A DNA stretch of 21,132 nucleotides, from positions 1 through 21,132 of IMG/VR virus record IMGVR_UViG_3300037191_001672; one strand, given 5' to 3'. This DNA comes from a virus. The notes beneath the pieces were generated by a model. That model saw nothing but the letters and a program-made list of their open reading frames with translations, did not search any database and had not been told where the DNA came from. Below, one piece after another: positions 323-19,125 of the stretch. How positions within the stretch are numbered: position 1 is the stretch's first letter; every line of letters begins with the position of its first letter. The position numbers and the translations under genes are program-made.

Positions 323-1435
323 ATGAGCTTTTGTAGTGCACCTTTTACACAACTGTCTATCGATCCCAGAGGTGTACTATTGCCATGCTGCCGATATCCA
401 AAACCATTATCGGATATGAAAGATGAGCGAATTGATGAAGGCTGGAATAATGAAAAATTCCAAGATCTTCGTCAAAGGTTTTTAGATGGTGAAAAACCTA
501 AAGAATGTAATGATTGCTGGAAGGCCGAAGAATCAGGTATTGAAAGTCTTAGGCAGGTAATAAATCGTTGGACCGATGATAAGTTACTGCCCGAAAAATT
601 TAAGTCCGCCGTTTTAGATACTCCGCCTGTATTTTGGGAATTTAAAACTACAAATGTGTGCAACCTTAAATGCCGTATGTGTGGATCATTCAATTCTAGT
701 CAAATTGCAAAAGAAACCGAAACGCCTGACGTGAGAGCACATTATCTAGCTCATAAAATACTCGGCACACATCACGAGCCAATCATACGCGATTGGCTGA
801 AGCAAGCTGATTATATCCTATTTGCAGGTGGCGAACCATTTGTAAATCAGGAAATTAAAAAGATTATGGATTACATAGACGAAGAAGGTCTTAATGACAT
901 AAGAACTTTAATGGTCACAAACGGAACTCACTGGAATACTAAGTTTGTTTCCCAGCTAAAAAAACTGAAGTCGCTTGACATTAGAATAAGTTTGGATGAT
1001 ATCTATGAAAGAAATAACTATCAACGTGAAGGCTCAGACTTCGACGTTATAGAAAAAAACTTTATAAATTTTATAAACAATTTTCCGGATAAAGTAATGT
1101 TTAATTGTACTATGAATTGGTACAATATATACTATATAGATGAGTTTTTAGAATATGCTGATGATTTTAGCACACCAGTTTCAATTCAATATGTTGAACA
1201 ACCAGTGAATCTAAATATCACTAATTTGCCTATTGAAGTAAAAGCAATTGTAAACAAGAAGTTTAAAGATAATAAAGACGAACGAATTCAGTTGATACTT
1301 AATAGAATGAACTTAGAAGGCGTTAATAAGATCGAACACTTTCGAGCACATATAAAATACTATGATGAACTGAGAGACAATAATTTTGCAAAAGCTTTTC
1401 CTGAATGGAGTGAGATATTAGATAATGTACGGTGA
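323..1435 (+). CDS. Radical SAM protein with N-terminal twitch-like Cys domain (copy 1)
   Basis: The 370-aa product has the radical SAM cluster motif C113-x3-C117-x2-C120 (CNLKCRMC) and a GGE motif (169-171, in LFAGGEPF). These are expected for a [4Fe-4S] enzyme that cleaves S-adenosylmethionine to a 5'-deoxyadenosyl radical. Before the core lies a Cys-rich N-terminal domain (C4, C22-C23, C62, C65, with the PxGxxLPCC pattern) resembling a twitch/SPASM auxiliary-cluster fold moved to the N-terminus. This matches the 'twitch domain-containing radical SAM' family common in marine phages and bacterial islands. The substrate of that family is not known to me. The start at 323 has AAGGA six bases upstream. 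It is the first gene of a coupled operon and overlaps the next, similar gene by 11 bases, suggesting the two work together. It could equally be a peptide, sugar or nucleotide modifier. Confidence 0.85.
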   Translation: MSFCSAPFTQLSIDPRGVLLPCCRYPKPLSDMKDERIDEGWNNEKFQDLRQRFLDGEKPKECNDCWKAEESGIESLRQVINRWTDDKLLPEKFKSAVLDTPPVFWEFKTTNVCNLKCRMCGSFNSSQIAKETETPDVRAHYLAHKILGTHHEPIIRDWLKQADYILFAGGEPFVNQEIKKIMDYIDEEGLNDIRTLMVTNGTHWNTKFVSQLKKLKSLDIRISLDDIYERNNYQREGSDFDVIEKNFINFINNFPDKVMFNCTMNWYNIYYIDEFLEYADDFSTPVSIQYVEQPVNLNITNLPIEVKAIVNKKFKDNKDERIQLILNRMNLEGVNKIEHFRAHIKYYDELRDNNFAKAFPEWSEILDNVR

Positions 1436-2474
1436 ATTTTCCCCATGTAATGCTCCATTTAATAATATGTATTTTAACACCCAAGGTGAAGTTGCTCCGT
1501 GTTGGAAGCTTCCTGGATTTGGTGACAAGTGGTCTAAGGATCGATCTGTAAATGATATATGGAATGGTGAGCATTTTCAAAAGTATCGTGATGCACTATT
1601 ACAAAACAAATTCTTAGATAGATGTAAAGAGTGCAAGCACGAAATGGATAATGACGTATGGCCTCTTGCAAAGGCATATGGTGAATTACCTGTGAATAAG
1701 AATGGTTATCCAAGCATGATTGAGCTTGAGGTAAGCAACCAGTGTAATCTCGAATGTATAATGTGTTCACCGCTATTAAGTAATGGCCTTGCAAAGAAAG
1801 CCGGTATGGGCGATCATCGTGGAATGCTAGAACCGTATGATGATTCATTTAGAGAGCAATTAAAGGAATACTATCCGCATCTTAAAGAGCTTCGATTTAA
1901 TGGCGGAGAACCATTTGCTCAAAAACTAGTATTAGAAATGTGCGAAGACATAGCAGAAATTAATCCTGGTCTTCCTATTAGTATTGCTACAAATGGTACT
2001 GTAATGAATAAGCGAGTACGTCATCTATTAGATATCTGTAACATCCAAATCAATATTAGTATTGACAGTTTAATTCCTGAGGCATATTCAAAAATTCGTA
2101 TTAACGGCGATCTTAGTAAAGTTATGGAAAACTTAGAAATCTTTAAGGATCACTGTAAGAAGAAGGATGTACAAATATCGGTTATGGTAAATCCTATGCG
2201 TAATAACTGGGAAGAGATGCCATCGTTCTTAGACTTTTGTCATAAGCATGATGTAAAGCTTTGGTTTAATACCGTGCTTTATCCGAGGCACCTATCGATA
2301 TGGAACCTTCCTACGGATGAGCTTAAGGTCATTTATGATAAGTTATCTACTATGACTGCTCGGCGAAAAAGGCTCAATGAATATAATAAACTCCGACATT
2401 TAGTAGAAGATCAAATTGCAAATTGGTTAATGGATTCTTATACAGAATCAAAACCAGACGATTTACATCCATGA
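1425..2474 (+). CDS. Radical SAM protein with N-terminal twitch-like Cys domain (copy 2)
   Basis: The 349-aa product has the same architecture as its upstream neighbour: an N-terminal Cys domain (C8, C26, C67, C70, with GEVAPCW in place of LLPCC) followed by a radical SAM core with C107-x3-C111-x2-C114 (CNLECIMC) and GGE at 160-162 (FNGGEPF). Only one Cys is present where copy 1 has a CC pair, so the auxiliary cluster may be ligated differently. The two are clear paralogues by domain order but diverged in sequence, so this is an old duplication or separate acquisition. The start overlaps the previous gene by 11 bases, and the stop overlaps the next start as ATGA, indicating translational coupling. 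The substrate is unknown; co-occurrence with a sulfotransferase-like gene hints at a small-molecule or surface-decoration pathway (inference). Confidence 0.85.
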   Translation: MYGEFSPCNAPFNNMYFNTQGEVAPCWKLPGFGDKWSKDRSVNDIWNGEHFQKYRDALLQNKFLDRCKECKHEMDNDVWPLAKAYGELPVNKNGYPSMIELEVSNQCNLECIMCSPLLSNGLAKKAGMGDHRGMLEPYDDSFREQLKEYYPHLKELRFNGGEPFAQKLVLEMCEDIAEINPGLPISIATNGTVMNKRVRHLLDICNIQINISIDSLIPEAYSKIRINGDLSKVMENLEIFKDHCKKKDVQISVMVNPMRNNWEEMPSFLDFCHKHDVKLWFNTVLYPRHLSIWNLPTDELKVIYDKLSTMTARRKRLNEYNKLRHLVEDQIANWLMDSYTESKPDDLHP

Positions 2475-3088
2475 CCCGTAAAAATATTTTGATAGTATCG
2501 GTACCAAGAACTGCATCTACATATTATCAAAGGGCTATGGCTCAAGAACACAATCTTATTGATGCCGGTGAAAAGCTTGAAACTATTAACTCAATTTATA
2601 GAAGCGATATAAACCCTTATATCGCTAAAGTGATGTTTTTAAAATTGGGGCGCTATATCGTACACTACCAGGATATTATTAAAGAGTGTGAAATACATGT
2701 ACTAGCCCCAAGAGAAGATATGGTTGATCACATAATGTCAAATCTTCTAATGCAATATAAACAACAGACTGATGGCTATGGCGAATATTGGTCAGTATCA
2801 TATGATAGAGATAAAAATAAAGTGTTAAACAATCTTGGCGATATAAAGGTACCGTATGAATATGTGACGGATGTTTCTGCTTACCATCTAATGCAAGCTC
2901 GCACTTTAGGAAAAATGACGCAATATGATAAGAAGATTACTTTTGAAGAAGTTATCGGACTACAACTACATACCTACCCAAATCATAAAGTATTTGAATC
3001 GCGCGAAGACAAGATGAGGTATTTTGAAGAGCCTGAAAAAACATTAGAGTATCTGGAGGCGTTAACATCATGTCATTTGCTGATTTAG
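2471..3088 (+). CDS. Sulfotransferase-like protein
   Basis: I place the start at ATG 2471 rather than the in-frame ATG at 2423, because it forms an ATGA overlap with the previous stop and puts the nucleotide-binding motif at the N-terminus. The 205-aa product begins with a beta strand and loop, ILIVSVPRTASTYYQRAM. PRTAST (residues 12-17) resembles the 5'-phosphosulfate-binding loop (PRTGST type) of PAPS-dependent sulfotransferases. The protein is short for the family and I cannot point to the 3'-phosphate-binding segment with confidence, so activity is unproven. It would transfer sulfate from PAPS to an unknown acceptor in the cytoplasm. It sits between radical SAM genes and overlaps the next by 19 bases, so it probably belongs to the same pathway. 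It could instead be another P-loop-like protein. Confidence 0.6.
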   Translation: MTRKNILIVSVPRTASTYYQRAMAQEHNLIDAGEKLETINSIYRSDINPYIAKVMFLKLGRYIVHYQDIIKECEIHVLAPREDMVDHIMSNLLMQYKQQTDGYGEYWSVSYDRDKNKVLNNLGDIKVPYEYVTDVSAYHLMQARTLGKMTQYDKKITFEEVIGLQLHTYPNHKVFESREDKMRYFEEPEKTLEYLEALTSCHLLI

Positions 3089-3870
3089 TAAATAAGCAAG
3101 TTAGAATTGCGCTAGACCTTTCTACATATTGTAATGCAGCTTGCCCACAATGTCACCGTACTGATCCTAACGGGCTTGGTAAGATGCCATGGCTTCCACT
3201 TATAAAATGGTCGTTAGAAGACTTTACACGAAAGTTTCCGCCAGGATCAATAGACTTTGTTTCACAGTTTGAAATTTGTGGAACTTGGGGTGATCCTATT
3301 ATGAGTAAAGATGTTGGCAAAATATGTAAATATATTATCGATAACTCGGATGCTCAAATACATTTGAATACAAACGGCGGGATGCGAACAGAAACTTGGT
3401 GGGAAGATCTTGGAAACTATTGTAAAGAGCGCCTGACGGTATATTTTGATATTGATGGTGTTGATAACGAAATGCATCAGAAGTACAGGAAAGGTGTAGA
3501 TTTAAACATAACGCTTAACAACATGGAAGCACTTTCTATTACACGTGCTCATACAAAAGCGTTTATAATTCTATTCAAACACAATCAAGATTATGTCTAT
3601 GATATAAGAAAAATGTGTAGAATGTACGGTGCCCAAGAAGTCTATATTATTAAGTCTGATAGATTTTTGATCAATGATAGGTTTGAGTTTATTAATGAGT
3701 TTGGTGAAAAAGAAGTTCTTGAAGAAATAACTAAAGACTTAAATCACATAATTCAAAATCCTTGGATCGATAATGCTTCAAAGAATATGATGGCAACACA
3801 TAATAAAACTGACAAAAGCAAGTATGCTAAAGATTGGACAATCCATGGACACAGATCTCACAGAGAATAA
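3070..3870 (+). CDS. Radical SAM core protein, stand-alone (pair A)
   Basis: The 266-aa product carries C21-x3-C25-x2-C28 (CNAACPQC) after a first beta strand (RIALDLSTYC), typical of the radical SAM barrel start. In place of the usual GGEP it has CGTWGDPI (70-77), which aligns by position with the SAM-amino-group-binding GGE loop. A later FDIDG and FKHNQD are shared with the pair B protein at 4170. There is no C-terminal Cys-rich SPASM region: the protein ends shortly after the barrel, and that domain is encoded by the next, overlapping gene. The start has GGAGG about ten bases upstream and overlaps the sulfotransferase gene by 19 bases. Reaction and substrate are unknown. Confidence 0.82.
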   Translation: MSFADLVNKQVRIALDLSTYCNAACPQCHRTDPNGLGKMPWLPLIKWSLEDFTRKFPPGSIDFVSQFEICGTWGDPIMSKDVGKICKYIIDNSDAQIHLNTNGGMRTETWWEDLGNYCKERLTVYFDIDGVDNEMHQKYRKGVDLNITLNNMEALSITRAHTKAFIILFKHNQDYVYDIRKMCRMYGAQEVYIIKSDRFLINDRFEFINEFGEKEVLEEITKDLNHIIQNPWIDNASKNMMATHNKTDKSKYAKDWTIHGHRSHRE

Positions 3871-4198
3871 ACCATGCATTACGTGCAAGTGGTTAAATGA
3901 AGAAAAAATACTCGTAAACCCAGATGGTCAGGTACTACCGTGTTGCTATTTAGGTAATACCAATTTCTTAAACCTATCAGATCCATCAAACAGGTCTGGC
4001 TGGGATAAGGATGGGTCTGTATTAAATAAGTATAAAAAGAATAGGCATAAGTATAATTTGAATGGCCACACCCTTGAAGAAATATTGACTTCTGATTGGT
4101 TTAACGTAGATCTTCCTGAATCATGGGAAAGCTATGAAACTCTTCCATCTGCATGCAGGACCTTTTGTGATGAACCAGACACTACTCCACTTTCTTGA
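3845..4198 (+). CDS. Stand-alone SPASM-like Fe-S domain protein (pair A)
   Basis: The 117-aa product looks like the C-terminal auxiliary domain of a SPASM radical SAM enzyme without its core: C11-x2-C14, then NPDGQVLPCC (C33-C34), then a helix with LEEILTSDW, and finally C104-x3-C108. In fused enzymes the same order (Cys, PxGxxxxCC, IxxIWxS, CxxxC) ligates one or two auxiliary [4Fe-4S] clusters. I chose ATG 3845 over 3824 because a GGA sits six bases upstream and it starts just before the first Cys pair; 3824 cannot be excluded. It overlaps the radical SAM core gene by 26 bases in the +1 frame and overlaps the next core gene too. It probably docks onto the pair A core in trans (inference). 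A programmed frameshift joining the two is possible, but I see no classic slip site. Confidence 0.75.
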   Translation: MDTDLTENKPCITCKWLNEEKILVNPDGQVLPCCYLGNTNFLNLSDPSNRSGWDKDGSVLNKYKKNRHKYNLNGHTLEEILTSDWFNVDLPESWESYETLPSACRTFCDEPDTTPLS

Positions 4199-4868
4199 AA
4201 GATCTAATCCGCACGTAAACTTTTCTCGTACTATCAACATGGATATATCTAATAAATGTACGTTAGAATGCCCATGTTGCAGACGCTTACAGCATATGAA
4301 AAAATATGGTAAAGTTTTAGGTGAGACGCTTTCTATAAAAGACTTTGAAAAGTATCTTAAGTATTTTGACCATTTTGATTTTAGTGGACAAGTTTCAGAC
4401 CCGTCTATGCATCCAGATTTTAAAGGCATATTGCATAAGGTTATAGAGTATGGTAAAAGTGCCTCAGTACACACAGCAGCATCACATAAGCCAGTAAAGT
4501 GGTACAAAGAAATATATGAAGAATGTACTAATGAAAATATTTCGTGGTTTTTTGGAATAGACGGACTACCAGAAGATTCACACAAATATCGTGTAAGGCA
4601 AGACGGCAAAAAGCTTTTTGATATGATGAAGATGTCTACAGAATACATGGATCCTAATAATATCATATGGAAATACATTGTATTCAAATACAACCAACAT
4701 GATATTGAAACTTGTAAAAAAATGGCACGTGATATCGGCGTCATATTTAATGTCGTGTATTCAAACCGATTTCCGTCCGAAGAATTCAGGCCAGACACAG
4801 AATTCCAATCTACGATACCAATGTTAAATAAAGTATATTATCCTGACGGAAGTGAAGAAATATGGTAA
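4170..4868 (+). CDS. Radical SAM core protein, stand-alone (pair B)
   Basis: With the start at ATG 4170 (AGGA nine bases upstream; an in-frame ATG at 4134 is the alternative) the product is 232 aa. The cluster motif is C30-x3-C34-x2-C37 (CTLECPCC, with one extra Cys at 36). The GGE-equivalent loop reads FSGQVSDPSMHPDF, again ending in DP. Shared landmarks with pair A (DxSxxC start, F-x-IDG, HxYR, FK-x-NQ) show the two cores are paralogues. The C-terminal SPASM region is absent and is supplied by the next gene, which begins seven bases before this stop. Length is below that of a complete SPASM enzyme, consistent with a core-only protein. Function is unknown; it likely acts with the gene at 4862. 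Confidence 0.8.
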   Translation: MNQTLLHFLERSNPHVNFSRTINMDISNKCTLECPCCRRLQHMKKYGKVLGETLSIKDFEKYLKYFDHFDFSGQVSDPSMHPDFKGILHKVIEYGKSASVHTAASHKPVKWYKEIYEECTNENISWFFGIDGLPEDSHKYRVRQDGKKLFDMMKMSTEYMDPNNIIWKYIVFKYNQHDIETCKKMARDIGVIFNVVYSNRFPSEEFRPDTEFQSTIPMLNKVYYPDGSEEIW

Positions 4869-5242
4869 ATGAATTTGAACCTATGTGTCTCGTTAAAAAA
4901 TCCTTGCTTATGAAAAAAGAAGGATTTGCTCATACTGCTACCGGATATTTAATACCGTGTTGTCACATTGACTACGAGCACAAACCACCAGATCCGCTAT
5001 ATAGTGCATTATTGAACGAAGAGCTTAAACTTTCAAATAATGAGTCTATCGAAGATATTCTATTAACAGATGAATGGTTAGCCTTTTCTGATGCTGTAGT
5101 AAAAGGAGCAAACGAAGGTCTTGAATATGCACCGCTGGCATGTAGAAAAATATGCGGGCCAGATAGACCAATTGAACAGATTGGCAGAACTGATGGCACT
5201 GTAAAAGAAAAAGTGAAAAAAAGTGAAAAAATAGCAAATTAA
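4862..5242 (+). CDS. Stand-alone SPASM-like Fe-S domain protein (pair B)
   Basis: The 126-aa product repeats the pattern of the protein at 3845: C9, then TGYLIPCC (C33-C34), a helix containing IEDILLTDEW, and ACRKIC (C94, C98) near the end. It is a paralogue of that protein and again follows a radical SAM core gene lacking this domain. The first C-x2-C pair of the pair A protein is reduced to one Cys here, so cluster ligation may differ. The C-terminus is a Lys-rich tail (KEKVKKSEK) encoded by an A-rich run. It overlaps the core gene by seven bases (frame -1), with a GAAG-type ribosome site upstream. This is the last gene of the accessory operon; no clear terminator follows, and a new promoter lies just downstream. 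Confidence 0.75.
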   Translation: MVNEFEPMCLVKKSLLMKKEGFAHTATGYLIPCCHIDYEHKPPDPLYSALLNEELKLSNNESIEDILLTDEWLAFSDAVVKGANEGLEYAPLACRKICGPDRPIEQIGRTDGTVKEKVKKSEKIAN

Positions 5243-5245
5243 CTG

Positions 5246-5274
5246 TTTACATATGATTCCAGATGTATTATTCT
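5246..5274 (+). promoter_or_regulatory. Sigma70-like promoter for the small-gene cluster
   Basis: TTTACA (5246-5251; five of six to the -35 consensus) is separated by 17 bases from TATTCT (5269-5274; four of six to the -10 consensus). Transcription would start around 5281, some 25 bases before the ATG at 5307, which has AGGAG at 5294-5298. A 7-base inverted repeat (ACTGTTT 5242-5248 and AAACAGT 5283-5289) brackets the promoter and could be an operator, or chance. The nonamer ATGTATTAT inside it recurs at 7443-7451 next to another promoter. Confidence 0.55.
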
Positions 5275-5306
5275 AATTACAGAAACAGTGATTAGGAGAA
5301 AACAAG

Positions 5307-5654
5307 ATGATCAAGATTCACCAAATTCAATTGACAGAAGCTCAAGTAGACCTTATCAACGCAGAAGGTCACGATGCAGTTCCTGCTCAGTCAGCTAAAT
5401 TGGCCGTATCATTCTTTGGTCCATCTAAGTTTAAAACCGAAAACTTTGCTTTCTACTCAGAAGCATTCCAAGTTCACACAGATGATAAAAATCTTGCATT
5501 TGAATATACTAATCTTTGGAACAATCAGTATTTTGTAGAAGTGATTGGTGATCGTAATCATTCAACATCAGTTGGTGATATCCTTGAAATGGATAACGGC
5601 GAATTCTTCATGGTGTGTAACTTTGGTTTTGAAAAAATCGAGGTGGCGGCATGA
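5307..5654 (+). CDS. Conserved phage protein of unknown function with SVGDI motif
   Basis: The 115-aa product is acidic and soluble, with no membrane segment. Its C-terminal third has the pattern HSTSVGDILEMDNGEFFMV followed by GFEKI, which I recognise as a recurring module (R/HSxSVGDxx...xG..F.V...GF) in small proteins of marine phages and plasmids. No function is established to my knowledge. The start has AGGAG eight bases upstream and lies directly behind the promoter at 5246-5274. Codon use looks more regular than in the radical SAM genes upstream, as expected for a well-expressed early gene (impression only). It ends in an ATGA overlap with the next gene. Confidence 0.7.
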   Translation: MIKIHQIQLTEAQVDLINAEGHDAVPAQSAKLAVSFFGPSKFKTENFAFYSEAFQVHTDDKNLAFEYTNLWNNQYFVEVIGDRNHSTSVGDILEMDNGEFFMVCNFGFEKIEVAA

Positions 5655-5833
5655 GCCTACAACAAGATTTAACTAATTTTTACAAATATAAGAGTGGCCA
5701 AGCTGCGGCCACCGAAGAAATGAAACATCCGGACTTCGACTTATTCGCCGCGATTAAATCTTTTGAGGATGATCCTGCAGACAGTTCTTTTCAGCATGGC
5801 TTTCTTAATGCATTGCGCAGAGGAGGTATGTGA
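5651..5833 (+). CDS. Small phage protein of unknown function
   Basis: This 60-aa protein starts in an ATGA overlap with the preceding stop and has a purine-rich GAGGTGG upstream. It is helical and polar, with no Cys and an acidic middle (FEDDPADSS) followed by FQHGFLNALRRGGM. I recognise no family. The last codons carry AGGAGG, which serves as ribosome binding site for the following gene, so the end of this gene is constrained by that role. It was probably co-transcribed from the promoter at 5246. Confidence 0.6.
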   Translation: MSLQQDLTNFYKYKSGQAAATEEMKHPDFDLFAAIKSFEDDPADSSFQHGFLNALRRGGM

Positions 5834-5997
5834 TGTTTTATCAGCAGCTGATTATGAAAATTTTAGAATGTGATGAGGCTTATGCCAAAATCATATTTGA
5901 TAAAATGTGTTTTTTGGATATGAGTGAAATGAGTGGTGCACAATTTACCGCTGAAGTACAATGGACAGATTTATGTTTAACTGAGGAGAGTGCGTAA
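5833..5997 (+). CDS. Very small phage protein of unknown function
   Basis: A 54-codon frame starts with ATG at 5833, sharing one base with the previous TGA, seven bases behind AGGAGG (5820-5825). It stops with TAA at 5995-5997, sharing one base with the next ATG. The product starts MFYQQLIMKILECDEAYAKI, is acidic and helical, and contains three Cys (residues 13, 26 and 48) with no recognised motif. The strong ribosome site and the exact fit between two neighbours make it a real gene despite its size. Confidence 0.65.
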   Translation: MFYQQLIMKILECDEAYAKIIFDKMCFLDMSEMSGAQFTAEVQWTDLCLTEESA

Positions 5998-6179
5998 TGG
6001 TTGGTTTAATCAGAGATATTGAAACACTTCGGAGTGTTATTATTGGAATTAGTGAAGGCGCTTCAGATGAGAAGCGTAGTGCAATGACTATGTTAACGGA
6101 CTTATTGGCACGTAAGGAGCTAGCATTCAAAACTTTTGAGGATGAAAATGAACCTCTAGAAATGGATGTGGTCGATTAA
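5997..6179 (+). CDS. Small acidic phage protein of unknown function
   Basis: This 60-aa protein starts in a TAATG overlap with the previous gene, eight bases behind GAGGAG (5983-5988). It is predicted helical with a very acidic tail (FEDENEPLEMDVVD). No family is recognised. It ends in a TAATG overlap with the next gene. Small acidic proteins in T4-like early regions are often host-takeover factors, but nothing here proves that. Confidence 0.6.
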   Translation: MVGLIRDIETLRSVIIGISEGASDEKRSAMTMLTDLLARKELAFKTFEDENEPLEMDVVD

Positions 6180-6409
6180 TGTTCACAAACGAAATTGATT
6201 GGGATGAAAGTATTACTACTGTCTTATGTGAAGCCGATGCTTACGAAGACGTGCAAATGTTCATCGACGAAAATGAAGTATACATAAGACAGTGGAATGT
6301 ATCACGGGACGAGCACGACTTGATTGTCATGTCTCCTATGATGTTCGCTGAACTATTACTAGCACTCAAACAGCCGGAAGGCAGTTTCCATACAAGGAAT
6401 AAAGAATGA
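6179..6409 (+). CDS. Small acidic phage protein of unknown function
   Basis: This 76-aa protein starts in a TAATG overlap without a strong ribosome site, so it probably depends on translational coupling. It is strongly acidic (EIDWDESITT near the start, FIDENEVYIRQW in the middle) with a hydrophobic helix (MMFAELLLALK) that is too short and interrupted to be a membrane span. No family is recognised. It ends in an ATGA overlap with the next small gene. Confidence 0.6.
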   Translation: MFTNEIDWDESITTVLCEADAYEDVQMFIDENEVYIRQWNVSRDEHDLIVMSPMMFAELLLALKQPEGSFHTRNKE

Positions 6410-6576
6410 CTAATGAGCATATGCAAGTTCAGATTATGAACATTATCGATAAATTAAAAATCATCGAGACAAAATTGTCTAAGGTTGAAGCACGCGTTTT
6501 AACACACCATGATGATATTCGTAGTATTCGTAAGCATACTGATGCAATTAAATCCACACTCGGAGGAATAAATTAA
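6406..6576 (+). CDS. Very small coiled-coil phage protein
   Basis: A 56-codon frame begins with ATG 6406 (ATGA overlap; AAGGA at 6394-6398) and ends with TAA at 6574-6576, sharing a base with the next ATG. The product has heptad-like spacing of I, L and V from about residue 9 to 50 (IMNIIDKLKIIETKLSKVE), which suggests a short coiled coil and oligomerisation. No family is recognised. The codons near its end carry GGAGGA, the ribosome site of the following gene. Confidence 0.62.
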   Translation: MTNEHMQVQIMNIIDKLKIIETKLSKVEARVLTHHDDIRSIRKHTDAIKSTLGGIN

Positions 6577-6845
6577 TGATGACTGATGAACAAATGAAAG
6601 ATCGTTTGGCTTTAATCAGAAAAGTCGGTAATCGTCGTAATAAAATGGCAAATCTTAAAGCTAAATCTAAGGCTCTATTAAATTCTGATATGTTGCCAAA
6701 AAAGAGTAAGCTTGTTCATGGCATTTTCATTCCGACTGATGACATGACTAATATCAATACATACACCGATGCACCGAAATATGCAAAGATGTATTATGGC
6801 GAAACTGCACATGAAACAACGAAATTTGATAATGATTGGAATTGA
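6576..6845 (+). CDS. Small basic phage protein of unknown function
   Basis: This 89-aa protein starts at ATG 6576 (or the adjacent ATG 6579), eight bases behind GGAGGA (6562-6567). The N-terminal half is basic and helical (RKVGNRRNKMANLKAKSK), possibly nucleic-acid binding. The C-terminal half is polar with several Tyr and Thr. No motif allows a function call. The next gene starts one base after its stop. Confidence 0.6.
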   Translation: MMTDEQMKDRLALIRKVGNRRNKMANLKAKSKALLNSDMLPKKSKLVHGIFIPTDDMTNINTYTDAPKYAKMYYGETAHETTKFDNDWN

Positions 6846-6846
6846 T

Positions 6847-7107
6847 ATGAAATATGAAAGAGAATGGCTTGTAAATACTTTGCTAGAAAATGAGAGCAAA
6901 GTAACATTCACTAAAAAAGACGGTACATCTCGTGTGATGTACTGCACGCTGCATCCATCTTTCTTACCGCCGGCTAAAAAGGACGATGCGTTAAGTCAGA
7001 AAAAAGTTCGTGCATTGAATGAAGAAGTTGTTGTAGTATATGATACAGAATCTGAAGGTTGGAGATCCTTCAGAGTTGATAGTGTGCTCGATTTTGAAAG
7101 TCTATAA
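6847..7107 (+). CDS. DUF2693-like small protein (SH3-barrel-like)
   Basis: I start the gene at ATG 6847, one base after the previous stop with GGA six bases upstream, instead of the longer frame from 6769, which would overlap the neighbour by 77 bases. The 86-aa product reads VTFTKKDGTSRVMYCTL, later VVVVYDTESEGWRSFRVDSV. This VxFxKKDGTxRxMxCTL ... VYD...GWRxFRxDS layout matches the small beta-barrel family I know as DUF2693 from T4-like phages. Its function is unknown. It is the last gene of the small-gene ladder, and its stop codon lies inside a late promoter box. Confidence 0.7.
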   Translation: MKYEREWLVNTLLENESKVTFTKKDGTSRVMYCTLHPSFLPPAKKDDALSQKKVRALNEEVVVVYDTESEGWRSFRVDSVLDFESL

Positions 7108-7110
7108 ATA
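7103..7110 (+). promoter_or_regulatory. T4-type late promoter box (TATAAATA)
   Basis: A perfect TATAAATA overlaps the TAA stop of the preceding gene. Expected start is near 7116, giving an untranslated leader of about 80 bases to ATG 7195. It would add late transcription of the small membrane protein, the basic protein and gp33. Confidence 0.55.
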
Positions 7111-7194
7111 GGTATTTAGTATCCATCCACCCTCAAAGGAACTCTTTAATTATACCACCATTTCTAATATCTGTACACAGTAAAAGGTTGACTT

Positions 7195-7407
7195 ATGAAT
7201 TTTTATATCGAACCATTTTGGGTAGCGTTTGCCTGCGTCGGGCTTAGTGCTTTGACCGGATATCTAATTGCTCGTACAAATCACGATGCAGATAATGAAA
7301 GAGCTATTGAGGACACTATCACATACCTTTGTAAAGAAGGCTATATAAAGCATAGGCATTTATCTGACGGTGAAATCGAAATCATTCCTCTGGAAGCAGA
7401 ACTATAA
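7195..7407 (+). CDS. Small single-span membrane protein
   Basis: The 70-aa product has one hydrophobic segment (residues 6-26, PFWVAFACVGLSALTGYLIA) followed by R27 and a polar, mostly acidic tail. This suggests an N-out/C-in inner-membrane protein or an uncleaved signal anchor. The tail pattern DTITYLCKEGYIK then GEIEIIPLE resembles short proteins of similar layout that I recall from marine T4-like phages; function is unknown. AAGG at 7184-7187 is seven bases before the start. It could act in host membrane takeover, superinfection exclusion or lysis timing, but nothing decides between these. Confidence 0.65.
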   Translation: MNFYIEPFWVAFACVGLSALTGYLIARTNHDADNERAIEDTITYLCKEGYIKHRHLSDGEIEIIPLEAEL

Positions 7408-7415
7408 AATAAGTG

Positions 7416-7444
7416 TGTACAACCTATTAATAATGTTGTAGAAT
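7416..7444 (+). promoter_or_regulatory. Sigma70-like promoter before the basic protein/gp33 genes
   Basis: TGTACA (7416-7421; four of six to the -35 consensus) and TAGAAT (7439-7444; five of six to the -10 consensus) are 17 bases apart. ATG 7473 follows with GGAGG at 7463-7467. The same arrangement (TGTAC-like element, 17 bases, TATAAT-like element) recurs before gp32 at 9256-9284. Confidence 0.5.
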
Positions 7445-7472
7445 GTATTATAGCAACGTTTTGGAGGATACC

Positions 7473-7979
7473 ATGGTTAAGAGAGATACTATAAAAATCA
7501 AGCCTAAGAAGCCACGCAAGCCTATGTCAGAGGAACAGCGCAAGCAGGTTGCTGAGCGTTTTGCCAAAGCTCGGGCCGAAAAGCTACTAAAAAATCCACC
7601 ATCATATTCATACATTGCCGATAACATATTGGCATTACCTGAAGATGATGTGTTCTCTCTTAAAAATATCAGACGGTGGCAGGCAACACAGAAAGAGATC
7701 TTGAAAGAAGATAGATCTCTCCTCCGTAAAGAACCTAATACAAAGGGCCTTTATGGAAAGGTATCTGCTACTGCCGGATACATTGCAAACCTAGATAGGT
7801 TCTTACGTACCGGAGATTACTGTGATGACTTCTATGGTGAACATAGGGAACACGCAGTAAAGTGGAGATGTGTACATCCGGCATACGACAAAGAAGGTAA
7901 TATTAAACGAACACATGGCGTATTTTATTCAGACCTTGGATTTACCTGGAATGATATGGCGGAAAACGAGGTTGAATGA
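7473..7979 (+). CDS. Conserved basic phage protein of unknown function
   Basis: I start at ATG 7473 because GGAGG lies five bases upstream; the longer frame from 7443 would overlap the predicted promoter. The 168-aa product has a very basic N-terminus (KIKPKKPRKPMSEEQRK, then a charged helix to about residue 45), followed by a LPEDDVFSLKNIRRW segment and a C-terminal globular part with HREHAVKWRCVHPAYD. The layout PxKPRKPMSEEQ-R-x-ERxxKAR with LPEDDxxSxKNxxxW is one I associate with a conserved protein next to gp33 in marine T4-like phages; its role is not known to me. The basic tail suggests nucleic-acid or RNA polymerase contact (inference). It overlaps gp33 as ATGA. Confidence 0.65.
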   Translation: MVKRDTIKIKPKKPRKPMSEEQRKQVAERFAKARAEKLLKNPPSYSYIADNILALPEDDVFSLKNIRRWQATQKEILKEDRSLLRKEPNTKGLYGKVSATAGYIANLDRFLRTGDYCDDFYGEHREHAVKWRCVHPAYDKEGNIKRTHGVFYSDLGFTWNDMAENEVE

Positions 7980-8206
7980 TAGAAACACAATTTTTAACAA
8001 AATCAAAATTCTCTGTTCTTATTGAGAATGCCGTAATTAAACAAAAAATGTCATACATCGATGCGGTGTGTGACATTTGCGAAAAGCATAATATCGATAC
8101 TCAGGATGTGCGCAAGTTTATATCTGCGCCTATCAAAGATAAGATTGAAGCCGAAGCAATGAAACTAAATTACTTACCACGCGGTAATGAATTAACATTT
8201 GAGTGA
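7976..8206 (+). CDS. gp33: Late-transcription co-activator, T4 gp33-like
   Basis: The 76-aa product aligns by eye with the C-terminal two thirds of T4 gp33. MSYIDAVCDICEKHNID corresponds to MSYLEATTAFLEENSIP, and APIKDKIEAEAMKLNYL to SGIIEKIQSEAIDENLL. In T4, gp33 binds the RNA polymerase beta-flap and links it to the gp45 sliding clamp, activating transcription from TATAAATA promoters together with gp55. The protein is shorter than T4 gp33 (112 aa) and lacks its N-terminal extension. It starts in an ATGA overlap with GAGG four bases upstream. Late boxes elsewhere in the window and the nearby gp32 gene fit the T4 arrangement, where gene 33 lies close to gene 32. Confidence 0.8.
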   Translation: MIETQFLTKSKFSVLIENAVIKQKMSYIDAVCDICEKHNIDTQDVRKFISAPIKDKIEAEAMKLNYLPRGNELTFE

Positions 8207-8209
8207 ACA

Positions 8210-9241
8210 ATGAAACCACTTCAGAATATAAATTTTGTACTGTCTAATAGATGCAATGCTACTTGTGTGTGGTGCCCGGCAAGTCGTGGCACTAAAAGTA
8301 ATTTTGATATGGACAAAGAGTTAGTATTTAAAATTATAGACGAAGCGGCTCACCCTGATTTTCCGTATGAATTGCAGCGTATGCATATGAGTGAAAATGG
8401 CGAGGCACTATATCATAGAGACTTTGTTGAGATCCTTCGATATATTAAAAAGAAACTTCCTAATGTGAAGGTTGATATGCTAAGCAACTTTGGACTAATG
8501 TCTAAGAAGGTTGCTGAGATACTTGTGAGAGAAAAACTGTTCGATTCTATTCAAGTTAATATTGATGGACACAACGACGAATCTTATAAGGCTGTCAAAG
8601 GTATTCCGTTTAAATCTGTAATGAAAAACCTAAAACATTTCTTAGGTTTGCGGATGGAACATTATCCTGATTTAGATTTTGGTATTAACGTAATGCCTGC
8701 CTTTGAATATGCTGCCACAATCTTCTCGGTATATGACAAGAACCCAATTCAAATTCCGGCTGGTACAAGTGTACCATTTAGCTCATACAGTTTGGTATGT
8801 AAAAGCCTAACAGAAATATTAGGTGAAGATATATTCAACTCACTGAGTGTAGTTAGACATAGTAGTTCAGGTATGTGGGCAGAAAGACCTCGATTTAAAT
8901 CAGGAGAACTTAAAGCTCACCCAGATTCTAAATGTCCTATGGTTAATGTTATGACAGAAACTATGTATGTAGCACCTAACGGAGATTTCTATGCATGCTG
9001 CCTTGATGATAATCAGGACTTGGTTGTAGGAAATCTGAAAGAGCAAACCTTAATAGAAGTTTGGAATTCACCTGAACGCCGAAACTTTATGAACAATATT
9101 AAGATGCATAACTATGGTAAGATTGGCTATCCATGTAATACTATTGGCGCCTGTCAAACCATAAATAACGCTGATCCCGATCATTGGAAAAATATCGAAG
9201 ATCAGTATAGCGATGGAGATTCCGTTGTCTTCGAAGAATAA
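8210..9241 (+). CDS. Radical SAM/SPASM protein, fused form
   Basis: The 343-aa product has the radical SAM motif C15-x3-C19-x2-C22 (CNATCVWC) at the very N-terminus. The GGE-equivalent loop is SENGEALYHRDF, and IDGHNDESY is a typical mid-barrel element. The C-terminal SPASM region has C242, APNGDFYACC (C263-C264), VGNLKEQTLIEVWNS, C309 and C315, enough for auxiliary Fe-S clusters. SPASM enzymes often modify ribosomally made peptides, but the family is broad and the substrate here is unknown. Unlike the 3070-5242 pairs, core and SPASM are fused. It starts three bases after gp33 with a weak ribosome site and is followed by promoters for gp32, so it sits inside the replication/late-transcription block rather than the accessory operon. 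Confidence 0.85.
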   Translation: MKPLQNINFVLSNRCNATCVWCPASRGTKSNFDMDKELVFKIIDEAAHPDFPYELQRMHMSENGEALYHRDFVEILRYIKKKLPNVKVDMLSNFGLMSKKVAEILVREKLFDSIQVNIDGHNDESYKAVKGIPFKSVMKNLKHFLGLRMEHYPDLDFGINVMPAFEYAATIFSVYDKNPIQIPAGTSVPFSSYSLVCKSLTEILGEDIFNSLSVVRHSSSGMWAERPRFKSGELKAHPDSKCPMVNVMTETMYVAPNGDFYACCLDDNQDLVVGNLKEQTLIEVWNSPERRNFMNNIKMHNYGKIGYPCNTIGACQTINNADPDHWKNIEDQYSDGDSVVFEE

Positions 9242-10232: not shown

Positions 10233-12550
10233 AATGCCCCTGGCATAAGAGCAAAGGGATCGCCTGCAGAGGCGGTCCCATTTAAGTTTGTGGAGTTAGC
10301 ACTAGAAGAATTATTGTTTGCAGTATTAGTTGTATTGTTGTTAACAATAACTGACGAAATATTTGCGGCTAGCTGTGCCTGCAATACCTGGACATTTTCT
10401 AACTCCCTACGAGTTTCATTATCCAACTGCCTAATTTTCTTTTGGCTAGAGGTATTCCTATTATCAATACGAGTTTGGGCTGCAGCTCTTGTTGTTGCAT
10501 CACCTACGCCTACATCAATTGCCGGAATAAGATTAAACGCCGGTGTGATAAATGTTTCAGGAATATCAATTTTAGGAAGTTTAAACCTGAAGTTTTTAGA
10601 AATCATCAAGTATAGTTCATCACCAAGATTTGATATAAAGTTAGCAGCCTTTTCAAAGCCTGACTTAAATCCGTTAACTAGTCTTTTAACACTGAATGAA
10701 ATCTGTGCTACTAGAATATCTTTCATTAGGCCAATATTATCACCAAGAGCAGTGACTATATCAGACAGGCTAAATGACAGTCCGCCTAGATTAACCTCAC
10801 CACTAAACTTACTTGATAACCAATTTTTAACGCCGTTAAATGCCATTACAGCAAGATCACCTATACTGTAGTCTTTCCATTTAGAAAGCTCTTCAGCTTC
10901 TTCTTTAAATCCTAATTTTCCGGCTAGCCATGATGTAATGCTTAATATCGCATCCTTGACAAGGTTAGGCACGATTGTCGTCACATTGATTAGTGATGCA
11001 ATAATGCCTTCCATACCCTTATCAAATACAAATAGCTTCTTGACATACTTCCATGCATCAGATACGGCGAAGCCTACTATCATTCCGATACTATCAGTAA
11101 ACTTTGTTACACCGTCTACAGACCACTTGAATATACCGGTGAAATAATCAAATACAGGTTTTATAGCATTATCATATATCCACGCACCTATGCTGGCCAC
11201 GCCATCAAGAAGTGTTGTCCATAATGCCTTTAAAGACTCGACCGGATTTGCAAACACCCCTTTAACCCATGTCACGACACCAGAGATTGCATCTCCTATA
11301 AATGTCTGTAGCTTAAATTGTTTACCTTCTTCGTCAGTTGTTTTCCAACCGAACATAGAACCAATCCACTCTATTGCTTTATTGATTGGATAGTAGAATA
11401 TATCTGTCAGTGTTGTTGCACCTGCAACTAATAGGTTAAGTGAACTAGTCCATAATTGCTTTAATGCTGTTAAAGGATCTGTAAACAGCGTACCGAACCA
11501 TTCCATGACACTAGTAATCATATCTTTTATTGGTTTAACAAAGTCAATACCTTTTAGCCATTCGGCGCCTTCATCAAAGCCAAGCTTCTTTAGACCCCAT
11601 GCCATCAGATCCTTTAAAAGGTTTAGCGGAGCACCAATGAAGTCTGAAAGTGCAGTACTAATACCGGCCGTAAACTTTTCGAATATCGTTCCTTCGGTGC
11701 CAATAAAATCTGTGACACCTTTGAAGGCTGACACAAGAACACCGATAGGCCAAAGTATTTTACCAAATACTGCTAAAAGTTTTGTTGCGCCACCCTTCAT
11801 AAAGGTAACTATCTTTGATCCAAAACCACTCGTAAAGAATTCACCAATCGCAGCCCCAACTTTAGTGATAGGACTAAACAGCGATTTCATCTGGATAAGG
11901 AATTTGCCTATCCTTGGAGACTTAAATTTACCATCTTCGCCCTGCAAAGCAATAAGCTTTCCATCAATGCCGATACCAAATCCTTTGAGTATGCTTGCTT
12001 TGGCATTCTTAAATGCATTAGCTATTTGCCCACCAATAGATGTGATCTGTTTGCCATCTTCACCCTTAGGAAGAACTGCACTCATACTAAAGAATCTTAA
12101 TACGCGTGCCCGAACATTTAGAAATTTTTGATTAAGGGTTTTAGCCAATGACTCTGGAAACAGATTGCCAAACTTTATATTACTAATACGCTTTATGATA
12201 GGAAGTTCCCACCCGCGCATGCCCGCAAATGCAGCAGCTACAGCAGCAAGGCCTGCCGTAAAGCCTGCAAGCATTTTTCCAATGTTAGCAAGTCTACCAA
12301 AGAAAGCATTGATATTACCGCTAGCATTGTCAAGGGGTTTAAAGCCGGTCATTTCTTTTTTTACGACCTTAGGGGTTTTAGGACCTTCTAGCTTATCTTC
12401 TAGTCTGTCACCAGCACCACGTGCCTGCAATTTAAACTGCTTTGCAAAAGTAGAATTAAGCTTCATAATAGCGTCAGTCGTATTTGACTGCGCCTTATTA
12501 CCTTTTGCAATTTCGTCTTTTAAGTCAGACAGTGTTATTTTATCAGCCAT
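10229..12550 (-). CDS. Tape-measure-like tail protein (gp29-position)
   Basis: The 773-aa product follows gp26 and its frameshift extension on the same strand, the normal place of a tape-measure gene. A polar, helical N-terminus is followed by a Gly/Ala-rich hydrophobic segment (about 85-110, AGFTAGLAAVAAAFAGM), then a long region of loosely repeated modules with Trp and Pro landmarks (W-x-G-x-LF-x-DPL-x-AL-x-x-LW, then VFANPVESLKALWTTLL). A short coiled coil follows (DNETRRELENVQVLQAQLA) and then an Asn/Ser-rich tail. Such proteins span the tail lumen and set its length; at about 0.15 nm per residue, 773 aa would fit a tail near 115 nm (estimate). T4 gp29 is the functional equivalent at 590 aa; I do not see direct identity. 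Its ATG overlaps the upstream TAA as TAATG, so translation is coupled. Confidence 0.7.
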   Translation of the reverse strand: MADKITLSDLKDEIAKGNKAQSNTTDAIMKLNSTFAKQFKLQARGAGDRLEDKLEGPKTPKVVKKEMTGFKPLDNASGNINAFFGRLANIGKMLAGFTAGLAAVAAAFAGMRGWELPIIKRISNIKFGNLFPESLAKTLNQKFLNVRARVLRFFSMSAVLPKGEDGKQITSIGGQIANAFKNAKASILKGFGIGIDGKLIALQGEDGKFKSPRIGKFLIQMKSLFSPITKVGAAIGEFFTSGFGSKIVTFMKGGATKLLAVFGKILWPIGVLVSAFKGVTDFIGTEGTIFEKFTAGISTALSDFIGAPLNLLKDLMAWGLKKLGFDEGAEWLKGIDFVKPIKDMITSVMEWFGTLFTDPLTALKQLWTSSLNLLVAGATTLTDIFYYPINKAIEWIGSMFGWKTTDEEGKQFKLQTFIGDAISGVVTWVKGVFANPVESLKALWTTLLDGVASIGAWIYDNAIKPVFDYFTGIFKWSVDGVTKFTDSIGMIVGFAVSDAWKYVKKLFVFDKGMEGIIASLINVTTIVPNLVKDAILSITSWLAGKLGFKEEAEELSKWKDYSIGDLAVMAFNGVKNWLSSKFSGEVNLGGLSFSLSDIVTALGDNIGLMKDILVAQISFSVKRLVNGFKSGFEKAANFISNLGDELYLMISKNFRFKLPKIDIPETFITPAFNLIPAIDVGVGDATTRAAAQTRIDNRNTSSQKKIRQLDNETRRELENVQVLQAQLAANISSVIVNNNTTNTANNNSSSANSTNLNGTASAGDPFALMPGAF
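10256..10283 (+). terminator. Candidate hairpin terminator behind gp32
   Basis: GGGATCGCC (10256-10264) pairs with GGCGGTCCC (10271-10279) over nine pairs (one G-U) around a six-base loop, followed by ATTTAAGTTTG. It lies 24 bases after the gp32 stop, where convergent transcription meets. The U run is poor, so termination may be partial. The hairpin is inside the coding region for the last residues of the opposite tape-measure gene. Confidence 0.4.
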
Positions 12551-12741
12551 TATCTTTTACTTTGCTGTTCCTTGGCTCGTTCATTTTCTTCTTTTATATG
12601 TTCAATGAGCATTGTTAAATATACCTCCCTTTCCCATGGTATCATCTCTTCTATTTCGGTTAATGAATAATGATGATGTTGCATCAGGGAGAAATTCGTC
12701 TTAAAGTATCCGATCAGAGATTCGTGAGAAAGGGCTATTAG
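12550..12741 (-). CDS. -1 frame extension of gp26 (tail assembly chaperone-like)
   Basis: Behind the gp26 slip site the -1 frame is open for 63 codons, starting LIALSHESLIGYFKTNFSLM and continuing through SLTEIEEMIPWEREVYLTML to a charged tail ending QQSKR. Its TAA (12550-12552) shares a base with the tape-measure ATG. The extension is compact and helical, and PWERE-x-Y-x-x-L is a pattern I recall from small proteins beside gp26 in marine T4-like phages. An internal ATG (12684) could give a 44-aa protein, but it has no ribosome site, and plausible coding sequence continues upstream of it (GYFKTNFSLM) with no start codon other than by frameshifting. I therefore read it as the C-terminus of a 299-aa gp26 fusion, analogous to lambda gpGT. 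Confidence 0.7.
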   Translation of the reverse strand, partial: LIALSHESLIGYFKTNFSLMQHHHYSLTEIEEMIPWEREVYLTMLIEHIKEENERAKEQQSKR

Positions 12742-18295: not shown

Positions 18296-19125
18296 TGAGT
18301 CATTATGGTGATAACTTTCGCTGGTTCATGGGCGTAGTAATTAATAACCTAGATCCGCTTATGCTCGGAAGAACACAAGTTCGCATTTTTGGTATCCATA
18401 ACTCGGCGCTAGATGCAATTCCTAATGCCAAACTGCCTTGGGCTACAGTGATGCAACCAACAACAAGCGGCGGTACTTCAGGTATCGGTGCGATGCCTAT
18501 GCTTTTACCGGGTGCACAGGTTGTTGGGTTCTTTATGGACGGCGAAGGATCACAGCTTCCACTTATCATAGGCGTAGTTCCACATCTTGAAGTGCCGTCT
18601 GAACAACAGCTTGTCAAGGCGCAATCAGTCGAAATTGGTTATGGTGTTGGACAAGTCGATCCTGCTCTTGCACGGGCTGTGGGTACAGTAAACAACAGTA
18701 TGGGTTCAAGCGCATCAACGACATCTACTACAGGTATTCCGGTATATCCGCCCGATATATCTCTTGCATGGATAGAACAGACGATCAGAAGTGAAGCAAA
18801 CAAAGTAAGTATTGATCCAAATGTTGCGGTTAGATTATGGAAAGCCGAAGGCGGAGGTCAGTATCAGTCAGGTGTTACTACAGGCAATCAATTAAAAAGG
18901 AATGGTCGCGAAGCATCGTACGGCCCTTTTCAGTTGTATGTTGGTGGAGGTATGGGTAATGATTATGAGAGCGCTACCGGAAGAGATCTTGCGACTGACA
19001 ATACGAAAGCCGGTGTTACTAAACAAGTAGAATTTGCATTGGCCCAGGCAAAACGTGGTGGATGGGGTCCATGGTATGGCCGCAAGCCTGCCGGGATTGC
19101 AGTGTGGGAAGGAATTAGAACCTAA
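18292..19125 (+). CDS. gp5: gp5-like spike protein: OB-fold plus transglycosylase-like lysozyme domain
   Basis: The 277-aa product starts with the gp5 OB domain: FRWFMGVVINNLDPLMLGR aligns with T4 NLNWFVGVVEDRMDPLKLGR, and LPWATVMQPTTS...GIG with LPWMSVIQPITSAAMSGIG. Residues 130-150 form a Ser/Thr linker. The C-terminal domain (about 152-277) is not the T4 lysozyme fold signature. It reads VRLWKAEGGGQYQSG with E186 as a candidate catalytic acid and REASYGPFQL (206-215), the E ... S-x-GPFQ layout of SLT-type lytic transglycosylases. The protein ends there and lacks the beta-helix needle, which appears in the gene at 20729. It would locally open the murein during injection. The start may be ATG 18292 or 18295. 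Confidence 0.78.
   Translation: MMSHYGDNFRWFMGVVINNLDPLMLGRTQVRIFGIHNSALDAIPNAKLPWATVMQPTTSGGTSGIGAMPMLLPGAQVVGFFMDGEGSQLPLIIGVVPHLEVPSEQQLVKAQSVEIGYGVGQVDPALARAVGTVNNSMGSSASTTSTTGIPVYPPDISLAWIEQTIRSEANKVSIDPNVAVRLWKAEGGGQYQSGVTTGNQLKRNGREASYGPFQLYVGGGMGNDYESATGRDLATDNTKAGVTKQVEFALAQAKRGGWGPWYGRKPAGIAVWEGIRT

Follow-up and report, generated by a model that had tools for sequence, protein, structure and literature searches.

Two probable two-subunit, twitch-type radical SAM enzymes in a T4-like marine phage

The window analysed here, a stretch of 21,132 nucleotides (IMG/VR virus record IMGVR_UViG_3300037191_001672), is a fragment of a T4-like marine phage. It probably encodes two twitch-type radical SAM enzymes that are paralogues of each other and consist of two subunits each, the catalytic core and the auxiliary Fe-S domain being the products of separate genes. 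Core and twitch genes are inherited together, usually side by side with overlapping ends, and across their relatives they have been repeatedly fused, split, reordered and separated. In the twitch and SPASM enzymes treated in PMC9012708, the auxiliary domain extends the chain of the core at its C end. This arrangement was found in 27 of the 182 distinct relatives collected in this study, and neither in the two pairs of the window nor in 145 of these relatives. No precedent for a separate, stand-alone auxiliary domain was found in the literature within reach of our search, subscription journals lying mostly outside it.

Gene pairs and cysteine motifs

The two gene pairs and the neighbouring genes considered here are the following:
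323..1435, + strand: N-twitch radical SAM protein, auxiliary domain at the N end (PF13186 at residues 4-66, PF04055 at 109-259)
1425..2474, + strand: second N-twitch radical SAM protein (PF13186 at residues 8-71, PF04055 at 102-271)
2471..3088, + strand: P-loop protein resembling sulfotransferases, its gene sharing 19 bases with that of core A (weak match, PF13469 at E 0.037 only)
3070..3870, + strand: core A, radical SAM core-only protein of 266 aa; CxxxCxxC is CNAACPQC (residues 21-28, DNA 3130-3153), GGEP-like motif CGTWGDP
3845..4198, + strand: twitch A, stand-alone auxiliary-cluster subunit of 117 aa (124 aa from an earlier ATG at 3824); Cys at 3884, 3941-3946 (CC), 4154 and 4166
4170..4868, + strand: core B, radical SAM core-only protein of 232 aa (244 aa from an earlier ATG at 4134); CxxxCxxC is CTLECPCC (DNA 4257-4280), GGEP-like motif SGQVSDP
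4862..5242, + strand: twitch B, stand-alone auxiliary-cluster subunit of 126 aa; Cys at 4886, 4958-4963 (CC), 5141 and 5153
8210..9241, + strand: ordinary fused radical SAM protein with C-terminal SPASM domain (PF04055 at residues 10-146, PF13186 at 246-294)

All open reading frames of a preliminary description of this DNA were found where it had placed them. Its overlaps of 26 bases between core A and twitch A and of 7 bases between core B and twitch B were reproduced with starts at 3845 and 4862, as were the frame steps from core to twitch (+1 in pair A, -1 in pair B). Twitch A in turn overlaps core B by 29 bases, counted from 4170, which that description does not mention. The gene at 8210 had been presented as a fused radical SAM/SPASM gene, and its product indeed matches both families; it represents a third architecture within the same window. 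In the translation of L126, a sulfotransferase look-alike was recognised by eye as an N-terminal fusion to core A.

The CxxxCxxC motif of the radical SAM superfamily is present in both cores. Its Cys are invariant in 59 of 59 aligned core A rows, the window left out (11/11 fused and 48/48 split), and in 38 of 38 core B rows. Core A matches PF04055 with 37.5 bits, above the cut-off of 29.5, and core B with 18.9 bits (E 0.0018), below it. That the two cores are paralogues, and their small partners likewise, had been proposed earlier and is borne out by profile comparisons (E 5.9e-21 for core A versus core B, E 4.4e-7 for twitch A versus twitch B). Purifying selection acts on each of the four genes, dN/dS values being about 0.03-0.09 versus L005 (dN 0.015 and dS 0.16 for core A, 0.014 and 0.255 for twitch A, 0.008 and 0.278 for core B, 0.038 and 0.624 for twitch B).

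A SPASM motif contains seven Cys and serves two auxiliary clusters, while a twitch motif serves one, with C-x(n)-G-x4-C and a later Cys pair. The small partners had been described as SPASM-type, and the auxiliary Cys pattern behind this label (CC, C-x3-C) is real. However, twitch A and twitch B have five conserved Cys in common, arranged as C-x(n)-G-x4-CC...C-x3-C, i.e. the twitch motif; the seven Cys of SPASM were found in neither. Since the five Cys include an upstream one, a one-cluster twitch domain suits these small proteins better than SPASM, as far as their sequences tell. The pattern of twitch A is not due to chance, because all 47 split and all 11 fused rows of the alignment contain its five Cys; those of twitch B are invariant in 5/5, and also in the 19/19 split rows of alignment A10. 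Twitch A is barely over the cut-off of the SPASM family PF13186 (23.5 versus 21.5 bits), and the Pfam search of twitch B gave no match to PF13186 or to any other family. The five Cys would hold one cluster, the number and type of clusters being read here from the Cys alone. In BtrN the auxiliary cluster is held by four Cys, according to PMC9012708.

Split and fused relatives

The 182 distinct relatives comprise 145 split and 31 fused cases, and 6 truncated by the end of their contig. For core A, the separate partner lies downstream in 80 relatives and upstream in 1, with 12 fusions at the C end and 1 contig end. For core B, it lies downstream in 44, upstream in 16 and non-adjacent in 4, the rest being 15 fusions at the C end, 4 at the N end, and 5 contig ends. 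Overall, the twitch domain is at the C end in 27 fusions and at the N end in 4. In the four non-adjacent loci an N-twitch radical SAM gene separates the core from twitch B, which lies upstream at a distance of about 1.5 kb. Every one of the 176 cores whose context is visible therefore has a partner of the matching class. As a control, 18 of 684 other ORFs (at least 200 aa) were followed by such a partner. Core and twitch are split in 13 of 13 close loci, which together with the 145 split relatives supports the earlier reading of core and auxiliary domain as two proteins and shows that their separation is conserved. In a tree of 131 cores, A and B form separate clades, and at least 13 changes of architecture are required, at least 8 of them between split and fused. 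Twitch B was also seen, by eye, joined to a glycosyltransferase-like domain.

Fused homologues that align over the junction, for which the preliminary description had suggested a search, exist among these relatives. One of the natural fusions, L096, aligns over both Mosig_00084 and Mosig_00085 (39.2%, E 3e-44), which are separate genes. Mosig is a cultured Pelagibacter phage in which pair B is split and annotated as unrelated genes; core B matches Mosig_00084 at 41.6%. A protein search of deposited phages gave matches only in Mosig and Campylobacter phages, twitch A retrieving just two weak Klebsiella phage matches (E 0.8), and a DNA search of deposited phages found nothing. One narrow scan of bacterial genomes with two short patterns returned 2 loci, both in MAGs. 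As the Parcubacteria MAG locus coincides in size and range with a viral contig, a cellular origin was not found in this two-pattern scan.

Model of a fused relative and alternative readings

The natural fused A relative L132, about 50% identical to core A, was modelled with AlphaFold2 (pLDDT 91.8, pTM 0.90). Residues 228-236 of the model are disordered and correspond to the linker where split relatives are cut. Its structural matches begin at model residues 1-4, extend to residue 344 or beyond, and include BlsE 7vob (Z 20.0, 271 aligned, rmsd 3.7), SuiB 5v1s (Z 20.0, 275 aligned), MoaA 1tv7 (Z 17.4) and BtrN 4m7t (Z 15.3). Because this fused model matches whole SPASM/twitch enzymes across the disordered linker, the separate twitch likely docks in trans on its core. 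The docking put forward in the preliminary description thus gains support from the natural fusions and from a predicted fold resembling complete enzymes, and is kept here as likely. A model of an N-fused B relative (pLDDT 81.4, pTM 0.83) has PDB matches mainly on its core part, with a best Z of 12.7. When the PDB was searched by sequence, the core A profile gave three matches, BlsE among them (E 0.0022), and the twitch A profile only kinases with E 0.04 or worse, taken as chance.

Alternatively, the small protein could stay outside the active site and serve its own core specifically, as a ferredoxin-like electron donor or a carrier of clusters. It is indeed small and of Fe-S type, and electron transfer from one radical SAM protein to another has been reported for PapB and QueE (PMC10470005). 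We consider such a donor or carrier unlikely, as the L132 model and the existence of fusions at both ends assign the small protein to the place that the C-terminal domain occupies in complete SPASM/twitch enzymes, and as the class of the partner is strictly cognate. This last observation also bears on the suggestion, made earlier, that twitch subunits are common to core A and core B or exchanged between them. In its favour, the two pairs are paralogues within a single run of genes, with twitch A sitting between the two cores of the window. However, partner class tracks core class in all 176 cases, i.e. in 172 of 172 adjacent or fused ones (margin at least 31.6 bits) and in 4 of 4 non-adjacent ones, and the A and B cores belong to separate clades. 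Exchange is thus not supported and very unlikely.

Overlapping genes and fused relatives aligning over the junction could also mean that the ribosome shifts frame in the overlap, producing a single core-twitch chain with nothing split. The preliminary description had stated that ungapped fused homologues together with a shared frameshift signal would indicate one protein. Since fused homologues exist, one half of this was found; the other half, a shared signal, was not, as by eye no slippery site common to the two overlaps of the window was seen. Moreover, among split relatives with a downstream partner the frame step is +1 in 75, -1 in 44, and in 5 both genes are in frame with a stop codon between them; the partner is upstream of the core in 17 split relatives, and a whole gene intervenes in 4. 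Frames, gene order and inserted gene leave next to no chance for a frameshifted single protein, which we take as ruled out. The same two gene orders, three frame relations and intervening gene uphold the earlier view that a sequencing error is unlikely; although the window is a single metagenomic fragment, the split in 13/13 close loci, in 145/182 relatives and in the cultured phage Mosig rules out an assembly error and, with the low dN/dS of all four genes, makes error or gene decay a negligible explanation.

Proposed role and known systems

For the two-subunit enzymes, we propose that each core would use SAM on its CxxxCxxC cluster to generate a 5'-deoxyadenosyl radical. The cognate twitch subunit would dock at the site taken by the C-terminal domain in BlsE, SuiB and MoaA, and equip the active site with one auxiliary [4Fe-4S] cluster. 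As has been proposed for BtrN, this cluster may accept an electron of the substrate radical; alternatively it may bind the substrate, like that of MoaA. The overlap of the genes could provide for equal synthesis and assembly of core and twitch. The substrate is the least certain part: the neighbouring genes suggest sugars or surface glycans produced by the island, and possible reactions on a nucleotide sugar are oxidation, epimerisation or decarboxylation. Judging from the gene neighbourhood, a two-subunit radical SAM enzyme for sugar tailoring in a phage glycan-modification island is likely. Immediate neighbours include a DegT aminotransferase and a carbamoyltransferase; CTP_transf_3 and DAHP_synth_1 occur in this glycan setting, with a Glyco_transf_8 match slightly below its cut-off, and the twitch B joined to a glycosyltransferase-like domain agrees with it. 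Among 148 flanking proteins scanned, 3 were DegT, 2 GT8 and 31 other radical SAM proteins. More speculatively, and with a low probability, the auxiliary Fe-S domain might be a mobile, recruitable subunit that, depending on the lineage, is tethered at either end, free, or fused to a glycosyltransferase-like domain, and that completes the active site and passes the substrate onward to the following enzyme in glycan tailoring. The auxiliary cluster would then be an in-trans switch setting what the core does.

Direct evidence for the role of auxiliary clusters has long been elusive, as noted in PMC9012708. In fused enzymes, testing this role needs mutation of cluster ligands, which can destabilise the protein. 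In the phage pairs this domain comes, twice over, as a subunit that can be left out, with fused relatives as controls. As catalytic and auxiliary halves are made separately, the role could be tested by adding or omitting a protein, and mixed pairs are possible. A role would also follow for many phage 'hypothetical proteins', e.g. Mosig_00085, and the annotation of partner genes as molybdenum cofactor enzymes would be corrected.

The phage proteins resemble twitch (BtrN, MoaA) and SPASM enzymes (SuiB, SkfB, anSMEcpe, PqqE) in the core CxxxCxxC, in the auxiliary C-x(n)-G-x4-C with a later Cys pair, and in the superposition of the fused relative on both domains. They differ from all of these in that the auxiliary domain is a gene product of its own, whose gene may lie on either side of the core gene or at a distance from it. 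BlsE, a cytosylglucuronate decarboxylase acting on a sugar compound, is the top structural match of L132, but is a single chain. L132 scores only 20.7 bits with the BlsE family TIGR04466, far below the cut-off of 400, and therefore no function in common with BlsE is claimed; this family was not listed for cores A and B of the window (E up to 1), nor for L096, L149 and Mosig (E up to 0.001). The likeness of L132 to BtrN 4m7t, which represents sugar or cyclitol dehydrogenases that remove two electrons from a sugar-like alcohol, is one of fold only. The N-twitch family NF033640 matches the protein at 323..1435 with 287.5 bits (cut-off 170) and that at 1425..2474 with 168.8 bits, slightly under the cut-off, and was not listed for core A or B. 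Its members, of which these two lie in the same gene run, also carry the auxiliary domain elsewhere than at the C end, but are still one chain.

To go by its name, GeoRSP_SPASM (TIGR04304) belongs to a radical SAM system as a SPASM protein in its own right, the partner of a radical SAM/SPASM protein. Its model length of 293 is, however, more than twice that of either twitch protein; with E values up to 1 it was listed neither for twitch A (2 families listed) nor for twitch B (none), and it was not found in the genome of L272 (0/1). LipS1 and LipS2 are each a radical SAM protein, whereas the second phage protein bears the auxiliary motif only. What this two-protein lipoyl synthase shares with the phage pairs is the division of the work of a radical SAM reaction between two proteins (PMC9585515). 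Radical SAM islands are found in other phages as well, Campylobacter phage CP220 having 11 radical SAM genes according to PMC2853527. Weak relatives of both cores occur in the Campylobacter phages CP220 and F379; unlike the pairs of the window, gp80, gp83 and gp84 of CP220 look by eye like single fused chains.

Separate core and twitch genes

The four ORFs of the preliminary description, two radical SAM cores each with a small partner, are present in the window as described:

Core A, 3070-3870, + strand, radical SAM core-only gene
Twitch A, 3845-4198, small auxiliary-cluster partner gene of core A
Core B, 4170-4868, + strand, radical SAM core-only gene
Twitch B, 4862-5242, small auxiliary-cluster partner gene of core B

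Both cores carry the canonical CxxxCxxC motif, and both partners show C-x(n)-G-x4-CC with a later C-x3-C. These five Cys are invariant in 5/5 B partners and present in all 47 split (two-gene) and 11 fused (one-chain) rows of the family A alignment used; in a smaller first alignment of this family, the last Cys of one of its 11 rows (L015) was not at the aligned place. According to passages of PMC9012708, the usual number of auxiliary clusters is two in a SPASM domain and one in a twitch domain. The partners had been described as SPASM-type; the auxiliary Cys motif is indeed there, but we name them twitch subunits because their five Cys, as far as sequence can tell, would fit one cluster. Profile comparison bore out the proposed pairwise paralogy, of core A with core B and of twitch A with twitch B.

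Comparison of the window with the related locus L005 indicates purifying selection on all four genes, with dS/dN of 0.16/0.015 for core A, 0.255/0.014 for twitch A, 0.278/0.008 for core B and 0.624/0.038 for twitch B. GGEP is the usual motif of radical SAM cores. Its position reads CGTWGDP in family A (window 3277-3297) and GQVSDP in core B of the window (4381-4401).

Split, fused and permuted relatives

Scanning first with core A, we obtained 13 loci, and the split arrangement claimed earlier recurred in these close relatives, a separate partner ORF directly following the core in 13/13. Wider scans found relatives in at least 473 (B) and at least 181 (A) viral stretches, of which the 80 best per family were retained. 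The window and the related viral loci L001-L270 then entered a profile census, which comprised 182 distinct cores. Among the 94 A cores, the partner is separate in 81 (80 downstream, 1 upstream) and fused at the C end in 12, and one core lies at a contig end. The 88 B cores are more varied: 44 have the partner downstream and 16 upstream, 15 are fused at the C end and 4 at the N end, 5 lie at contig ends, and in 4 non-adjacent cases twitch B is found about 1.5 kb upstream (4/4). These four are L043, L045, L047 and L062, where the gene separating core and partner was identified by eye as a radical SAM gene with an N-terminal auxiliary domain (N-twitch). Wherever the context of a core is visible, a partner of the same class is there (176/176); among 684 other ORFs, each 200 aa or longer, taken for comparison, 18 are followed by a twitch-only ORF. 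In L173 (1852-4225) the order is twitch A, core A, core A, twitch A, the adjoining cores being flanked by partners.

Downstream partners of family A are in the +1 frame in 47 cases, in -1 in 28 and in-frame after a stop in 5; those of family B are in +1 in 28 and in -1 in 16. The distance from core to downstream partner, with starts set by rule, ranges from an overlap of 85 bases to a gap of 11. Since all three frame relations occur, and given these distances, a single frameshifted core-twitch product is excluded for the family as a whole. In a quick tree of 131 cores, A and B form separate clades, with a minimum of 13 architecture changes, or of 8 if only the difference between split and fused counts; these counts are approximate because 42/128 inner branches are weak.

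The split B pair also occurs in a cultured phage, Pelagibacter phage Mosig EXVC030M. There the core is Mosig_00084 (annotation: molybdenum cofactor enzyme) and twitch B is Mosig_00085 (annotation: hypothetical), with an overlap of 8 bases. L096, a fused relative, matches both proteins in an alignment of two pieces (39.2%, E 3e-44). The text of the genome announcement (PMC7892664) does not contain 'radical', 'molybdenum', 'glycosyl' or 'auxiliary'.

Phages with many radical SAM genes are already known, as passages of PMC7029224, PMC5332604 and PMC2853527 record. No precedent for a separate auxiliary domain was found in the literature searched. The apparent novelty lies in a twitch domain that is a removable subunit: many phages retain it, and it has been fused, released and permuted repeatedly.

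Predicted structures of natural fusions

The AlphaFold2 model of L132, a natural C-terminal fusion of family A, has a mean pLDDT of 91.8 and a pTM of 0.90, with a linker (228-236) below 50. The model superposes, over its two domains jointly, on BlsE (Z 20.0, 271 aligned, rmsd 3.7), SuiB (Z 20.0, 275 aligned), SkfB (Z 18.9), anSMEcpe (Z 18.1), MoaA (1tv7, Z 17.4) and BtrN (Z 15.3), so the predicted domain placement is confident despite the low-confidence linker. The split relatives are cut at the place of this linker. For L149, a natural N-terminal fusion of family B (pLDDT 81.4, pTM 0.83, linker 92-109 below 50), PDB matches mostly cover the core, with a best Z of 12.7.

Gene neighbourhood and likely function

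The window is a complete IMG/VR virus record of 21,132 bases, in which the radical SAM cluster under study spans 323 to 5242. T4-type genes lie beyond it, among them:

Late-transcription coactivator, 7976
ssDNA-binding protein, 9333

The nearest relatives of the latter are in Phage C48C1 (60.0%) and then the Melnitz phages (55.1%), all Kyanoviridae. Over 323-9241 the two domains occur in three arrangements, with the auxiliary domain N-terminal (323, 1425), C-terminal (8210) or separate (3070-5242).

In L048, L057 and L067/L068, twitch B forms one protein with a glycosyltransferase-like domain, which was identified by eye from its similarity to Mosig proteins; one neighbour of these Mosig proteins matches GT8 slightly below the cut-off, and the L048 fusion has no Pfam match. 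In L126 the N end of core A is joined to a domain resembling, by eye, the sulfotransferase-like protein of the window, and the domain order is the gene order of the window. This sulfotransferase-like gene (2423-3088) is missing from two loci, L005 and L006; in these, core A directly adjoins the second N-twitch gene. L047 encodes (2645-5524) a 960-aa protein in which an N-twitch radical SAM protein is joined to a carbamoyltransferase.

Near the pairs are a CMP-sugar type cytidylyltransferase, a DAHP-synthase-family protein, the GT8 match already mentioned and a nitroreductase. The 148 immediate neighbours include radical SAM (31), SPASM (21), carbamoyltransferase N-terminus (9), DegT (3) and GT8 (2), and the Mosig neighbours are annotated as sugar aminotransferase, carbamoyltransferase and methyltransferase. 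Passages of PMC7029224 describe a pelagimyophage hypervariable region with LPS-related glycosyltransferases and cassettes of radical SAM proteins, and propose a change of the host O-chain against coinfection; one marine T4-like genome holds 12 radical SAM genes, as noted in PMC5332604. Together with the neighbouring genes, these reports lead us to favour, tentatively, sugar or glycan tailoring as the role of the core-twitch pairs.

Elsewhere, L005 carries an IMP dehydrogenase/GMP reductase-type gene (11606-12709) beside a gp33-like gene, at the spot held in the window by the fused radical SAM gene at 8210. The window also encodes a tail-region protein (19125-20732), the later part of which resembles, by eye, N-acetylmuramoyl-L-alanine amidase.
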